Below are positions 9,160-13,512 of a DNA stretch of 64,000 nucleotides, in pieces. This stretch comes from Chloroflexota bacterium (lineage in GTDB: Bacteria; Chloroflexota; Dehalococcoidia; Lucifugimonadales; UBA3495). The notes beneath the pieces were generated by a model, which was not told the DNA's origin, ran no database searches, and saw only the letters and a list, made by a program, of their open reading frames with translations. The first letter of the stretch is position 1, and every line of letters starts with the position of its first letter. The DNA lies in contig JAPPCX010000114.1 in NCBI GenBank assembly GCA_028875655.1, forward strand, positions 62,001 through 126,000, written 5' to 3'. The position numbers were made by a program, and so were the translations under genes.

Positions 9160-10035
9160 TCAGTCTCCCGCAGCGAGTGGTTCGGGTTGCGGTTCGCGGC
9201 GCCGCAGGAGGGAGAACAAGGCCCAGCGTCGCGGAGAAGCTGCCACGGTAATCAGGAGCAGGGCTACCGATACCACCACGATGGCCGGGCCGGTGGGCAG
9301 GTTGAGGTGGAACGACAGGTACAGCCCAATGACGATAGCGGCCAGTGCGACGACTACGGTAGCAAACATCATGCCGGCCAGGCGGCGGGCCAGCAGACTG
9401 CCCGTGACCGCCGGCACCACCAGCAGCGACATCACCATCACGTTGCCAACCGTTTTCAGCGCGGCCACGGTGGTCAGGGCCACCAGCAGGGGCAGCAGGT
9501 ATTCCAGGAATCTTACCGGAACACCCGACGCCTGCGCGACGGCGGAGTCATACGTGGTGAAAACGAGCTCTTTGTAGAGCAGCCGCACCACCAGCACAAC
9601 GCCGCCGGCCAGCAGCCCCACCGCAAGCACGTCATTCCATGAGGCGCCCAGCACATTGCCGAAGAGGATGCTGAGCAAATCGCCGGAGTAATTGTCGCTC
9701 ATGTTCATCAGGATTATGCCCAAGGCAAATCCGCCGGCGAAGAGCACTCCTATCACCGCGTCCAGACGTACTCCGGCCCGCCGGGACACCAGCGAAATGC
9801 CGAGGGACGCCGGCACTGCCCAGACCAGGGCGCCCAGGAAAATGTTGGCTCCGAACAGGAACGCCACTGCCATGCCGGTCAGGGCCGAGTGTGCTATGGC
9901 ATCCCCCAGGAACGCCATGCCCCGCAGTACGACGAATGTGCCGACCACTCCGCAGGCGGTGGCGGCGAGTGCGGACACCAGCAGCGCGCGCTGCATGAAG
10001 CCGTACTGCATGGGTTCAATGATCAGGTCGAGCAC
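9160..10035 (-). CDS. Zinc/manganese ABC transporter permease (ABC-3 family, ZnuB/AztB-like)
   Basis: 291 residues, eight or nine helices. MQRALLVSALAATACGVVGTFVVLRGMAFLGDAIAHSAL near the N-terminus is diagnostic for ABC-3 permeases, where the GDAIAHS stretch is almost invariant. It transports Zn2+ (or Mn2+) delivered by the binding protein encoded upstream. Start is a GTG at 10035 with AGGAGG 6 bases before it. The ATPase normally encoded between or next to binding protein and permease is absent here; a 28-bp palindromic repeat occupies the gap instead. Confidence 0.92.
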   Translation of the reverse strand: MLDLIIEPMQYGFMQRALLVSALAATACGVVGTFVVLRGMAFLGDAIAHSALTGMAVAFLFGANIFLGALVWAVPASLGISLVSRRAGVRLDAVIGVLFAGGFALGIILMNMSDNYSGDLLSILFGNVLGASWNDVLAVGLLAGGVVLVVRLLYKELVFTTYDSAVAQASGVPVRFLEYLLPLLVALTTVAALKTVGNVMVMSLLVVPAVTGSLLARRLAGMMFATVVVALAAIVIGLYLSFHLNLPTGPAIVVVSVALLLITVAASPRRWALFSLLRRREPQPEPLAAGD

Positions 10036-10055
10036 GGGCTACCTCCTGGCAACGA

Positions 10056-10083
10056 GTAGGGGCGAATAATTATTCGCCCCTAC
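10056..10083. repeat. GTAGGGGCG palindrome, copy 1
   Basis: A perfect 28-bp palindrome with arms GTAGGGGCGAATAA and its complement. It lies between the zinc-binding-protein and permease genes. Three more copies with the same outer arm and different centres are at 13533, 18130 and 45007. Confidence 0.85.
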
Positions 10084-10110
10084 GTCCGGGTTGGCAACAG
10101 CGCAATGCTT

Positions 10111-12555
10111 TCAGTGCAACAAGTCGTGCAGCGCGTCGGCATTCGCCCGCATCATGCCGATGTAGTCCGGGTAGGCATCGGTCGGGAGCGAGTGGATGAT
10201 GCCGACCTGGATGTTGGCATCGCGCGCAACCTGCTGTAGAGCGTCGTCGGAGAACTGCGATTCGGCGAAAACCGCCGGCAGCCCTTCGTCATTCACCAGG
10301 TCCAGCACCCGGGCGATGTCATCGGGCGAAACGTCTCCGCCGTGGCCGCCCACGAACGCCATCACCTCCATGTCGTAACGGGTCCCAAAGTAGCCGAAAG
10401 CGTCGTGGAAGGTGACGATGACCCGGTGTTCCTGCGGGATGTGCGACAGTTCCTCCGCTATGTAAGCGTCCAGAGCTTCCAGCTCGGCGATGTAGGCGGC
10501 GGCATTGTCCATATATTGGCCAGCGTGGTCGGGATCGGCGGCAACGAGGCCGTTGGCGATCTGGTTGACGTAGTGAACGACCATGCGGGGGTTCTGCCAG
10601 AAGTGTGGGTCCCCTGCGCCGTGGTCGTGGCCGTGGTCGTCGTGACCGTGGCCATCCGATGATTCCATCGACCCCGAACCATGCCCATGGTCGTCGTGGC
10701 CCTGCTCGGGGTGATCGCCCTCACCCAGGATACCGACGAAGGCGATTTTGGTGGGCGTCCCGTCAACGTCCCAGTGCCCCACGACTTCGAGGTCGTGGGA
10801 GTCCAGGGCCAGCACCTCTCCGGCGCCCGAGTCGGTGATGAAGATGTGCCCGGGGGCGGTGGCGATATGGGGTCGCGCCCAGAATCCGGGATCAATCTCA
10901 TCGGAAAGGAAACCGGACGCCGACGCCGTGAGATCGGCGTCGTGGGCGTCGTACATGCGGAGTTCTCCGTCGCTCATCACCACCAGCAGGTATTCACCGT
11001 CATAGCTGAGGGCCACCTGAATGGGGCGCAGGTCCTCGGTAGCGGGAATCAACTGGTCCATCTCGCCGTCTTCGGGTTCCACGATGTACAGGCCGACCGC
11101 GGAGCCCAGGGCGAAGAAGTGGTCGAGGCCATGGTAGCCCCAGACCGAAGTGAGCCGAAAATCGTCGGGCGAACCGGCCGGGCCGGCGATGAAATCGTGG
11201 TGGTAGTGTCCGTGGTCGGCCTCTACGACAAGGACGCCGCCGGTGCATCCGAAGACGGCCATGTGCCCGTTGCCGGCGTCGCCGTGCAGGTCGGGGCAGC
11301 CTTCGGCGGTGTACAGCACGTGGCCATCCAGGTCGCGGATTTCCGCGCCGATGGGCAGTCGGTAATCGCTAGGATTTTGCTCGAAATCCGGGTGCTGAAT
11401 GGTCACTGCGAACTTGTCGTCTTCCAGCGGCACCGCGGCGCCGTGGTGTGGGCCGGCGTTCATCATCACCGGGACGAAATCATCGCCCTCGTGCTCTAGT
11501 TCGTGCTCTTCAATCAGCGCGATGTCCCCGGAGCCGTCGTAGTAGATCGTCGCCCATTCCTCTCCGACGTACAGGTGAACCGGGCGGTCGCCGGTCAAGT
11601 TGGTCTGGAGCCGCTGAACGTCGGTTTCCACCAGATCGAAGTGGTCACCGTGTTCTTCCAGGTAGATGCCTCCGTCAAAAATGTGGACGGTGTTGGCGTC
11701 GGAGGACACGGCGATGGCGTAGCGTCCGCTGGCGGTGGGGTAAATGCGGCCGGCTCTCGAACCCAGGTCAAATTCGCCCTGGTGGGCATGGCCGGATTCC
11801 AGGTCGATCACCGAGAGGGAACCGGTTTCTCCGTCGCCGACGAGCAGCCGACCGTGCAGTTCGACCGCCTCTTCGTGCTCGTCATGGCCATGGTCGTCCT
11901 CCGGGAAGGCGAGCTCCACCAATTCCTGCGCATCCAACCCTTCTGACGCAACGACCCGGACTGCATCGGCAGACGCGGCGTTGTCGATCAACCCTTCCAC
12001 TTGCGCGGCCAGATTGGCGCCGTTGCTGACCAGCACCTGGGCCTCCGCGATGCGGACGCTGTCCTGCGGGGTGCTGTTCCAGGTGTGAACGTCGCTCCCG
12101 GTTGGGACGAGAGTATGGATGGCCACGCGGTTTCCGCCAACGTTAGCCACCAGGTCGGCCAGGAGAGCGTTGCCGGCGACCACGTTGATGGGTTCCGCGT
12201 CCGGTTGCGTCGCTGGCGCCGACTGTTGTGGCGCCGATTGCTGCGGGGCGGACTGTTGTGAGGCCGATTGCTGCGGGGCGGACTGTTGTGAGGCCGCAGT
12301 CTGGCCGCCGCTCGGCTGTGCTGGCGCGGTGGCGGATGCTGAACCCGCGGCAGCGTTGTCCGCGGGAGCGCTGGTTGGTGCCGTACCTGCGGGGGCAGAC
12401 GAATCAGCCGGAGGGAGCGCTGAATCGTCGCCTCCGCAGGCGGTCAAGAGGAGCGCGGCTGCCAGCATGGCGGCAAAAAAGGCCGCCAGCAGCAGCCTGC
12501 GAATTGGCGCAGACGATCTGGCAGCAGCGGGTAAAGGGTTGGACCGGTTGCTCAT
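10111..12555 (-). CDS. Zinc-binding lipoprotein (ZnuA/AztC type) with inserted AztD-like beta-propeller
   Basis: 814 residues from ATG 12555 (GGAG 9 bases upstream; 12597 is a longer alternative). The lipobox LTAC puts the lipidated Cys at residue 40, followed by a Gln/Ser-rich tether. The first lobe of a cluster 9 (ZnuA) binding protein starts at about 122 (INVVAGNALLADLV) with zinc ligand His157 in SDVHTW. At about residue 220 a His/Asp stretch opens into a propeller (about 234-609) resembling the zinc chaperone AztD: LHGRLLVGD, EEHGDHFDL, HHGAAVPL, and two cysteines (C420, C437) in CPDLHGDAG/FGC. A second His-rich run leads back into the SBP at DPHFWQNP (His651), then FHDAFGYF (His717). 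ZnuA proteins are normally about 300 residues and AztC and AztD are separate. The split position matches the ZnuA flexible His loop. Confidence 0.88.
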   Translation of the reverse strand: MSNRSNPLPAAARSSAPIRRLLLAAFFAAMLAAALLLTACGGDDSALPPADSSAPAGTAPTSAPADNAAAGSASATAPAQPSGGQTAASQQSAPQQSASQQSAPQQSAPQQSAPATQPDAEPINVVAGNALLADLVANVGGNRVAIHTLVPTGSDVHTWNSTPQDSVRIAEAQVLVSNGANLAAQVEGLIDNAASADAVRVVASEGLDAQELVELAFPEDDHGHDEHEEAVELHGRLLVGDGETGSLSVIDLESGHAHQGEFDLGSRAGRIYPTASGRYAIAVSSDANTVHIFDGGIYLEEHGDHFDLVETDVQRLQTNLTGDRPVHLYVGEEWATIYYDGSGDIALIEEHELEHEGDDFVPVMMNAGPHHGAAVPLEDDKFAVTIQHPDFEQNPSDYRLPIGAEIRDLDGHVLYTAEGCPDLHGDAGNGHMAVFGCTGGVLVVEADHGHYHHDFIAGPAGSPDDFRLTSVWGYHGLDHFFALGSAVGLYIVEPEDGEMDQLIPATEDLRPIQVALSYDGEYLLVVMSDGELRMYDAHDADLTASASGFLSDEIDPGFWARPHIATAPGHIFITDSGAGEVLALDSHDLEVVGHWDVDGTPTKIAFVGILGEGDHPEQGHDDHGHGSGSMESSDGHGHDDHGHDHGAGDPHFWQNPRMVVHYVNQIANGLVAADPDHAGQYMDNAAAYIAELEALDAYIAEELSHIPQEHRVIVTFHDAFGYFGTRYDMEVMAFVGGHGGDVSPDDIARVLDLVNDEGLPAVFAESQFSDDALQQVARDANIQVGIIHSLPTDAYPDYIGMMRANADALHDLLH
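12211..12300 (-). repeat. Three 30-bp tandem units in the lipoprotein tether
   Basis: Units at 12211-12240, 12241-12270 and 12271-12300; the second and third are nearly identical over their first 26 bases and the first is diverged. They encode the repeated S-A-P/S-Q-Q blocks between the lipobox and the zinc-binding domain. The tether length may vary by unit slippage. Confidence 0.75.
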
Positions 12556-12603
12556 TGTGTTCGACTCCATGGTTGCAAGAGTAGGTTCTGGTACCAAGAT
12601 GAA

Positions 12604-12640
12604 GTATCAATAAGATACAAATACCGATATACAGTATCAA
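12604..12640 (-). promoter_or_regulatory. Zur-like operator overlapping the zinc-binding-protein promoter
   Basis: Minus strand: TTGATA (12640-12635) and TATCTT (12617-12612) are spaced by 17 bases and form a plausible sigma70 promoter. The sequence TTGATACTGTATATCGGTAT (from 12640 down) covers it and matches 18 of 20 bases, allowing for the centre, with the element before the Fur-family gene. A further GTATC half-site lies at 12604-12608. Repression by zinc-loaded Zur would block RNA polymerase directly. The assignment to Zur is inference from position. Confidence 0.65.
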
Positions 12641-12684
12641 TTAGGCGTGAAGTTGAGAGAATGACTCGACGGGTTGAGTAGGAT

Positions 12685-13149
12685 TCAGTCAGAGCACTCG
12701 CCGCAGCGACCGTAAACTTCCAGCCAATGCCCGCTCATCCGGAAACCTGACCGGTCAGCGGCGGCGCGAAGTATGTCCTCTACGTCACAGTCTATCAAAT
12801 CGGCGGATGCGCCGCAGATGGCGCAGAGCATGTGGTGATGATGCCCCTGGTGGCTGAGCTGGTATCGCAGTTCCCGATCTTCCAGAAGCACCCGGCAGAC
12901 CTGATCGGTTTCCACCAGCAATCGGAGGCCCCGATACACCGTGGCCCGGCCGACGCATGGCAACGCCGTGCACAGCTCCTCTGCGGTGAAGGGACGTTCC
13001 TGGGCGGCAGCGGCGGCGATGACCAGGCGACGCGGCTCGGTATCCCGGTAGCCTTGATGCGCCAACTGGGCAACAATGTCGTCTACCACGGCAGCGGAGG
13101 CCGGGGTGGGATGGTCATGCCCTTTGTGTTTTGCGGTGCTGGAGATCAT
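12685..13149 (-). CDS. zur: Fur-family transcriptional repressor, probably zinc uptake regulator
   Basis: 154 residues. An N-terminal winged helix (FTAEELCTALPCVGRATVYRGLRLL, recognition helix near residues 60-75) is followed by the dimerisation domain with the H-x-H-H-type metal site (HQGHHHHMLC) and two C-x-x-C pairs (CAIC, CGEC) for structural zinc. It is adjacent to zinc uptake genes on the same strand, which favours Zur over Fur or PerR. The ATG at 13149 has no ribosome site and sits about 20 bases after a good -10 box, so the mRNA is probably leaderless or has a very short leader. Likely autoregulated through the operator at 13151. Confidence 0.85.
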   Translation of the reverse strand: MISSTAKHKGHDHPTPASAAVVDDIVAQLAHQGYRDTEPRRLVIAAAAAQERPFTAEELCTALPCVGRATVYRGLRLLVETDQVCRVLLEDRELRYQLSHQGHHHHMLCAICGASADLIDCDVEDILRAAADRSGFRMSGHWLEVYGRCGECSD

Positions 13150-13150
13150 T

Positions 13151-13196
13151 TTGATACTGCGTATCTGTATTTTATGCCAGGACGCCGGTTTGTCAA
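13151..13196 (-). promoter_or_regulatory. Promoter and operator of the Fur-family gene
   Basis: Minus strand: TTGACA (13196-13191), 16 bases, TAAAAT (13174-13169). Between the -10 box and the start codon lies the operator, read on the plus strand as TTGATACTGCGTATCTGTAT from 13151. It contains the dyad GATAC-TGC-GTATC at 13153-13165. It would cover the transcription start, giving autorepression. Confidence 0.65.
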
Positions 13197-13210: not shown

Positions 13211-13240
13211 TTGACGCTGCGGCGCGCCGGCGTTTATAGT
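13211..13240 (+). promoter_or_regulatory. Sigma70-type promoter of the FmdB-type gene
   Basis: TTGACG (13211-13216), 18-base spacer, TATAGT (13235-13240). The start codon lies 32 bases after the -10 box, giving a leader of about 26 bases with a GGGGAG site. Confidence 0.65.
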
Positions 13241-13272
13241 CGGCAGTACCAACCGACTGGGGAGTGTGTGCC

Positions 13273-13512
13273 ATGCCTATTTACGAGTATTCCTGTCCCA
13301 CCTGTGGCTACAGGTTTGAAAAGTTGCAGTCCATGTCCGCCACCGGCGCCGATTGCCCGCACTGCGAGCAGCCGGCCAAGCGGGCCATATCCGTGTTCGC
13401 CGCGGTCAGCAAGGGCGACAGCTTCGCCAGCGATATGGCTGATCTGGGCGGCTCTCCCATGCCGGCCCCGGTCGGGCACTCACACGGCGGGTTCTGCGGC
13501 TGCGGCCACTGA
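13273..13512 (+). CDS. FmdB-family zinc ribbon protein
   Basis: 79 residues. The N-terminus MPIYEYSCPTCGYRFE is the FmdB/CxxC_CxxC_SSSS signature, with Cys8, Cys11, Cys28 and Cys31 forming a zinc ribbon. The C-terminus is Gly/His/Cys-rich (HSHGGFCGCGH) and may bind another metal. The family was named as a putative regulator of formamidase genes, but its role is not established. Start at the ATG matching the conserved MPIYEY; an in-frame ATG 9 bases earlier is less likely. It is transcribed divergently from the Fur-family gene, so shared regulation by metal is possible. Confidence 0.9.
   Translation: MPIYEYSCPTCGYRFEKLQSMSATGADCPHCEQPAKRAISVFAAVSKGDSFASDMADLGGSPMPAPVGHSHGGFCGCGH

Follow-up and report, generated by a model that had tools for sequence, protein, structure and literature searches.

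Candidate Zur operators and regularly spaced box arrays at zinc-uptake promoters in a SAR202 lineage of the Chloroflexota

Genes and operator-like elements at the zur-aztC locus

The window analysed here is a stretch of 64,000 nucleotides from a Chloroflexota/Dehalococcoidia (SAR202) genome, a lineage of sponge- and ocean-dwelling bacteria. The features listed here are all on its minus strand.

9160-10035, minus strand: ABC-3/AztB-type permease, the next gene after aztC
10111-12555, minus strand: zinc-binding protein AztC/ZnuA with an internal AztD-type beta-propeller; the probable start is the ATG at 12555, the mechanical open reading frame running from 12597
12595-12609, minus strand: box B of the candidate znuA/aztC operator (30 bp downstream of box A), TGATACTTCATCTTG, with the TGATAC half alone conserved
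12612-12640, minus strand: predicted znuA/aztC promoter, TTGATA/17/TATCTT, 9/12 (-35 at 12640-12635, -10 at 12617-12612)
12625-12639, minus strand: box A of the candidate znuA/aztC operator, TGATACTGTATATCG, whose TTGATA is also the -35
12685-13149, minus strand: zur, Fur-family metalloregulator of 154 aa with CxxC...CxxC and GHHHH motifs
13152-13166, minus strand: candidate zur operator, AGATACGCAGTATCA, 11/12 to TGATACNNNGTATCA, spanning the predicted transcription start and ending 3 bases before the ATG (13149)
13169-13196, minus strand: predicted zur promoter, TTGACA/16/TAAAAT, 11/12 (-35 at 13196-13191, -10 at 13174-13169)

The first-pass annotation had reported two near-identical elements, at 13151 on the plus strand and 12640 on the minus strand, and both matched exactly. 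The window contains the sequence TTGATACTGNNTATCNGTAT twice (13151-13170, plus; 12640-12621, minus), compared with 0.00 occurrences expected from 100 shuffles, and there was no third match in the window even when 3 mismatches were allowed. The longer forms at zur and znuA, TTGATACTGCGTATCTGTATTT and TTGATACTGTATATCGGTATTT, share 19 of 22 positions and differ at the other 3. The symmetric unit is a 15-mer, located at 13152-13166 before zur and at 12625-12639 before znuA. The dyad GATAC-TGC-GTATC, annotated for both elements, is perfect at the zur site only, whereas the znuA site reads GATAC-TGT-ATATC.

A sigma-70-like search yielded 4 promoter-like sites in 761 bases versus 0.3 in shuffles, and a -10/-35 pair overlaps each of the two elements, as had been annotated. 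For znuA, the expected transcription start coincides with box B (12609-12595). In the zur promoters of the genus, the box comes 30 bases after the start of TTGACA and directly behind a TAATAT-like -10; the ATG is 2 bases further on, so that the leader is very short and the centre of the box lies at about the transcription start. The box also comes after a TTGACA promoter at the COG0523 genes. In loci L037-L080, the first znuA box is preceded, at 10-20 bases, by a conserved T run (often GTCTCTTTTTTT), which may be an UP element or mark where the zur transcript ends.

Shape of the box

Comparison of relatives gave the 15-bp dyad TGATACNNNGTATCA, often in the form TGA[TG]AC-NNN-GT[AC]TCA. It shares the 7-1-7 palindromic layout of Gram-positive Zur boxes but has C/G in place of A/T at positions 6/10; the classical box, with A/T at positions 6 and 10, is of the TGATAATNATTATCA type. 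At the zur promoters of groups A, B and C, the letters G2, A3, A5, C6, G10, T11, T13, C14 and A15 were conserved at 0.86-1.00, and both C6 and G10 reached 0.94-1.00 in the zur boxes, so that the classical A/T is missing from these two positions. The information content rose to 2.0 bits within the boxes and was far lower in most of the surrounding sequence. The 15-bp palindrome with outer TGA/TCA and a one-base centre was present, TGATACCTGGTATCA being a perfect example, and TGATACGGAGTATCA is palindromic except for its three central bases. Some znuA boxes, box A of the window among them, are 2 or 3 mismatches away from the consensus.

The operator had been described as unlike the classical Zur box, which holds for the C/G at positions 6/10 but not for the layout, since the 7-1-7 arrangement is retained. 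As far as the excerpts of the Streptomyces coelicolor study go, the Zur box in that species is likewise a 15-bp 7-1-7 palindrome, tGaNNatSatNNtCa, with outer TGA...TCA and two copies at znuA, while the boxes here have C/G at positions 6/10, are spaced 29-30 bp apart in many loci and number up to four (PMC5472717). The core GATAC-NNN-GTATC also fits RNNNYxxxRNNNY, which the E. coli text passages assign to a single Zur dimer; a box there takes two overlapping dimers, whereas the boxes here are separate, with about 15 bp between them (PMC4219657). The difference is a lineage-specific change of letters within a known Zur box.

Conservation of the box among relatives

The first-pass annotation had proposed a comparison with the upstream regions of related genomes, and this comparison bore the motif out; absence upstream of orthologues, named there as a refuting result, was not what we saw. 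We used 53 loci (L037-L089) with close Zur proteins from Chloroflexi/Chloroflexota, Dehalococcoidia or SAR202; the split at these loci, the thresholds of 9 and 10 of 12 and the groups A, B and C were all chosen post hoc on data already seen. At least 10 of the 12 consensus letters were found upstream of zur (-100 to +10) in 45/52 orthologues (shuffled, 39/10,400; L076, with 12 bases upstream, was omitted) and downstream of zur, that is upstream of znuA/aztC, in 46/53 loci (shuffled, 51/10,600), counts that are not independent because the loci come from related species, many of them the same species as the genomes of our G series. Below the threshold were L048, L060, L069, L071, L078, L085 and L089 upstream of zur (7/52) and L071, L074, L081, L085, L086, L088 and L089 before znuA (7/53). 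No box was seen on either side of zur in L071, whose Zur protein is 57% identical.

An out-of-sample set of 20 loci new to the analysis contained 18 Zur-like genes from the same order with 36-47% identity, and a box of at least 10 was present in 12/18 of these more distant orthologues, three times in perfect form. Outside the clade (L090-L116, 27 loci, on which four known consensuses were also tried), a box of at least 10 within 220 bp occurred in 2 loci only, L100 and L110. A chance origin of the box is rejected; chance occurrence is ruled out by the window shuffles, the orthologue counts, the out-of-sample loci and the reversed-pattern control described below.

Several genomes of the genus contain a second zur-aztC locus (G010:C1:3835684-3836197, G008:C98 (L159), G004:C19 (L167), G001:C51, G005:C97 and G012:C32). 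Some of these zur copies are broken or almost lost, and the boxes and the aztC gene persist.

Target genes

A scan of 14 genomes of the genus identified 68 sites with at most 1 mismatch, compared with 6 for the reversed-pattern control. Zinc-uptake-type or zur genes accounted for 40/68 sites (12 zur, 15 ZnuA/AztC, 5 COG0523/CobW and 8 SBP_bac_5, the latter being Ni/peptide-type binding proteins similar to Opp5A/NikA/CntA). Another 5/68 were at surface-type proteins (one with a TIGR03769 match below the cut-off, three with no zinc-related model and one in a remnant region), and 23/68 were unrelated, mostly within coding sequence. Sites away from the zur-znuA loci were sorted by hand from about 4 kb of surrounding sequence, plus product scans for part of them; further COG0523 and SBP_bac_5 copies were assigned by reading the sequence, G008:C98:3830, which precedes a zur remnant, was counted as zur, and L167:2001 was counted as unrelated. 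The motif is thus found mainly at zinc-uptake and zur genes rather than at unrelated ones, which had been named as the observation that would speak against a Zur operator, although the 23 unrelated sites exceed the 6 control sites and count against the Zur reading. The annotation had suggested scanning before zinc, ribosomal-protein-paralogue and metal genes; zinc and metal targets were recovered, but none of the 68 genus-wide sites was at a ribosomal-protein paralogue.

The set of targets resembles the Zur regulon of Paracoccus denitrificans, where, according to passages of the study, the motif precedes zur, znuA, aztA, a COG0523 gene and a Ni/dipeptide ABC operon, and two motifs are present at zur/znuA (PMC5387054). 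The same passages show differences: the motif there is of the GTAATGTAATAACAT type, zur and znuA are divergent rather than co-directional as here, and AztD is a separate protein rather than a domain within AztC/ZnuA (PMC5387054).

The genome of the window (3.45 Mb, 123 contigs) contained one further match to the 20-mer with 2 mismatches (G000:C83:2064-2083), located between a TTGACA promoter upstream and a TIGR03769/choice-of-anchor-M surface protein downstream, for which both models scored below the cut-off, and one with 3 mismatches (L004), within a gene-dense stretch. The scan of this genome at up to 2 mismatches gave 65 matches versus 11 for the control and was too noisy for naming targets; L183 and L184 were used from among the matches listed. 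Two places in the same genome, L005:2068-2082 on C83 and L171:2001-2015 on C56, share an alike upstream stretch with a TTGACA promoter and a box; the former leads to a TIGR03769-like surface protein, and the latter, flanked by transposase-like genes, has the appearance of a remnant. At several SBP_bac_5 genes (L136, L144, L150, L156, L164, L169 and L172) the box lies within the first codons, often as TTG-ATA, and the operator therefore seems to be written into the signal peptide.

Identity of the Fur-family protein

The protein encoded at 12685-13149 matched the FUR domain PF01475 with 67.8 bits (cut-off 23.1). The cysteines C109, C112, C149 and C152 of the putative structural Cys4 site are invariant in 18 sequences and align with the Cys pairs of FurB, whose aligned residues we take to be zinc ligands. 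The equivalents of the D-site, H103, H105, E124 and H141, are kept, the three histidines being invariant and E124 nearly so. The M-site, which is the main regulatory zinc site in actinobacterial Zur, has changed: C85 replaces the FurB Asp and S99 the FurB Cys. The choice of FurB ligands is supported by the zinc-site residues of ScZur, given in an excerpt as C79/H87 and H84/E105 (PMC11077047).

The Zur equivalog NF008646 scored 34.7 bits, short of its cut-off of 167. This model was presumably built on enterobacteria. Among the NCBIfam models, Fur and PerR come closest, all far under their cut-offs; since none of the Fur or PerR models reached its cut-off, the low NF008646 score does not indicate another subfamily. 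Sequence models neither prove nor rule out a Zur identity, and the function was assigned because of the targets of the box. As expected for zur, the gene precedes genes for zinc uptake and is linked to them.

Were the protein instead a regulator of the Fur or PerR type, responding to iron, manganese or peroxide, the boxes would be its operators and the link to zinc would arise from shared metal transport alone. The top PDB matches by sequence are Fur proteins, the nearest NCBIfam models point the same way from far below their cut-offs, and the main regulatory site is unlike that of FurB. We nevertheless consider this very improbable, given that the targets include ZnuA/AztC, an AztD-like domain and a COG0523/ZigA-type GTPase, that the Zur D-site residues are conserved and that each genome has 1-4 other Fur-family genes, 18/19 of which lack the box. 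The last figure comes from a control of all genes with a FUR domain above the cut-off in 7 genomes, leaving out the sub-threshold fragment L220: a box of at least 10 was present at 5/7 zur genes (one more scores 9, and G038 has none) versus 1/19 other Fur-family genes. A box general to the Fur family is ruled out by the 18/19 paralogues without it, and the sole box-bearing paralogue, in G028, may be a second Zur.

Taken together, the sites, the promoter matches, the conservation and the targets give good support to the zinc-responsive, autoregulated Zur circuit first proposed from this locus, and the two elements are very probably Zur boxes, the operators through which the Fur-family protein encoded between them would exert zinc-dependent repression. 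From the sites, their targets and the family of the protein we infer Zur binding, zinc as the signal and a repressive effect, to which cooperation between dimers may be added. Under this scheme, a zinc-loaded Zur dimer would sit on GATAC-NNN-GTATC and block RNA polymerase. At the zur promoter, the box across the transcription start, nearly reaching the ATG, would mediate autorepression; at the aztC/znuA promoter, box A would cover the -35 and box B, 30 bp further on, the start region, with neighbouring dimers presumably helping each other. Zinc shortage would release Zur from the DNA and switch on the zinc-uptake genes.

The boxes provide a candidate operator and a first list of targets for zinc control in SAR202/Dehalococcoidia; our literature search found no work joining Zur with the name of this lineage.

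Box arrays at the zinc-uptake promoters

The first-pass account of the znuA promoter was incomplete in that it missed the second box and the fixed spacing of 29-30 bp. In many loci, znuA promoters carry two to four boxes, and the distance from box A to box B in the window agrees with that in relatives. Neighbouring boxes of at least 9/12 formed 41 pairs in 26 loci, 37/41 of which were exactly 29 or 30 bp apart, the four exceptions being 42, 57, 60 and 60. Random placement of the boxes gave a mean of 1.6 pairs at 29-30 bp and a maximum of 7 in 5,000 trials. Partners of at least 8 were almost confined to the offsets 29 (31 cases) and 30 (30 cases), and their number rose again at 58-60. When half-sites were counted, two or more boxes were present in 33 loci (25 with two, 1 with three and 7 with four). 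Among 22 promoter-type sites elsewhere, 5/13 weak partner boxes were at 29-30 bp, with clear cases at L151, L160 and L161, and among 20 unrelated sites the fraction was 1/8.

Promoters with two Zur boxes are known from Synechococcus, Bacillus and Streptomyces; the passages of these papers share with our loci more than one Zur box per promoter but make no mention of a fixed spacing or four-box arrays (PMC9337993, PMC6103462). Nor was a fixed Zur-box spacing mentioned in the titles, abstract openings and text passages of the literature searched. What is new here, to a moderate degree, is the unusually regular array along with the lineage-specific letter change, several Zur boxes per promoter having been known before.

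The pitch may come from contacts between dimers, from the distance between the -35 and the transcription start, or from both. We tentatively suggest, as something less than a probable reading, that zinc-uptake promoters in this order are two-to-four-box arrays with a stereospecific spacing of 29-30 bp, on which dimers would stack and the number of boxes would set the zinc level at which the genes are released. If true, zur would have a single box and the main importer an array, each box also serving as a promoter element for the next. The pitch would then encode a graded response to zinc in readable form, in contrast to E. coli Zur with its overlapping pairs of dimers. The strict spacing, retained although the intervening sequence has changed, is a natural experiment on the cooperation of Fur-family dimers.

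Promoter geometry could produce the same repeat: with TTGATAC as the -35 and the next box at +1, a distance of 29-30 bp would follow with no dimer contacts at all. This explanation is a serious possibility, if short of a likely one. It is consistent with the single-box zur promoters of the genus, where the TTGACA -35 lies 30 bases ahead of the box, the same distance as from box to box, and with the window, where box A provides the -35 and box B is near +1. A four-box array would however require three overlapping promoters, and a good -10 was found in some gaps only; pairs at 29-30 bp also occur at the surface-protein genes L151, L160 and L161, at which no promoter was identified.

The second TGATAC of many SAR202 znuA genes might, in turn, be partly coding, in that NTG-ATA-C would be the start and first codons of the lipoprotein rather than a Zur half-site. 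About a dozen group-B loci do have the TTG or ATG of the second TGATAC as the first start codon of their znuA frame, and the right half of this second box is poorly conserved. We consider this unlikely, since the four-box arrays found in the genus and in L069 are outside coding DNA and mostly retain both halves, and TTG and ATA are odd choices in GC-rich genes.

The zinc-binding protein and neighbouring genes

The protein at 10111-12597 matched the ZnuA model with 245 bits, and the AztC and AztD models match it as well. The AztD-type beta-propeller is inserted between two AztC halves, just before the His-rich loop; the insertion also occurs in L040, L049, L069 and L072 and is absent from L047 and L063. 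The only fusion mentioned in two AztD structure papers is ZinT-ZnuA. An AlphaFold model of the AztC-AztD fusion had a mean pLDDT of 51 and was set aside. No ABC ATPase gene adjoins the permease gene (window 9160-10111); the best match in this genome to the zinc ATPase of a relative is on another contig (C34:14767-15363, 41%). An FmdB-type zinc-ribbon gene (window 13211-13512, plus strand), with its own promoter-like pair at 13211-13240, is divergent from zur, and an oppositely directed FmdB-like gene is located upstream of zur, at varying distances, in 9/16 loci of the genus.
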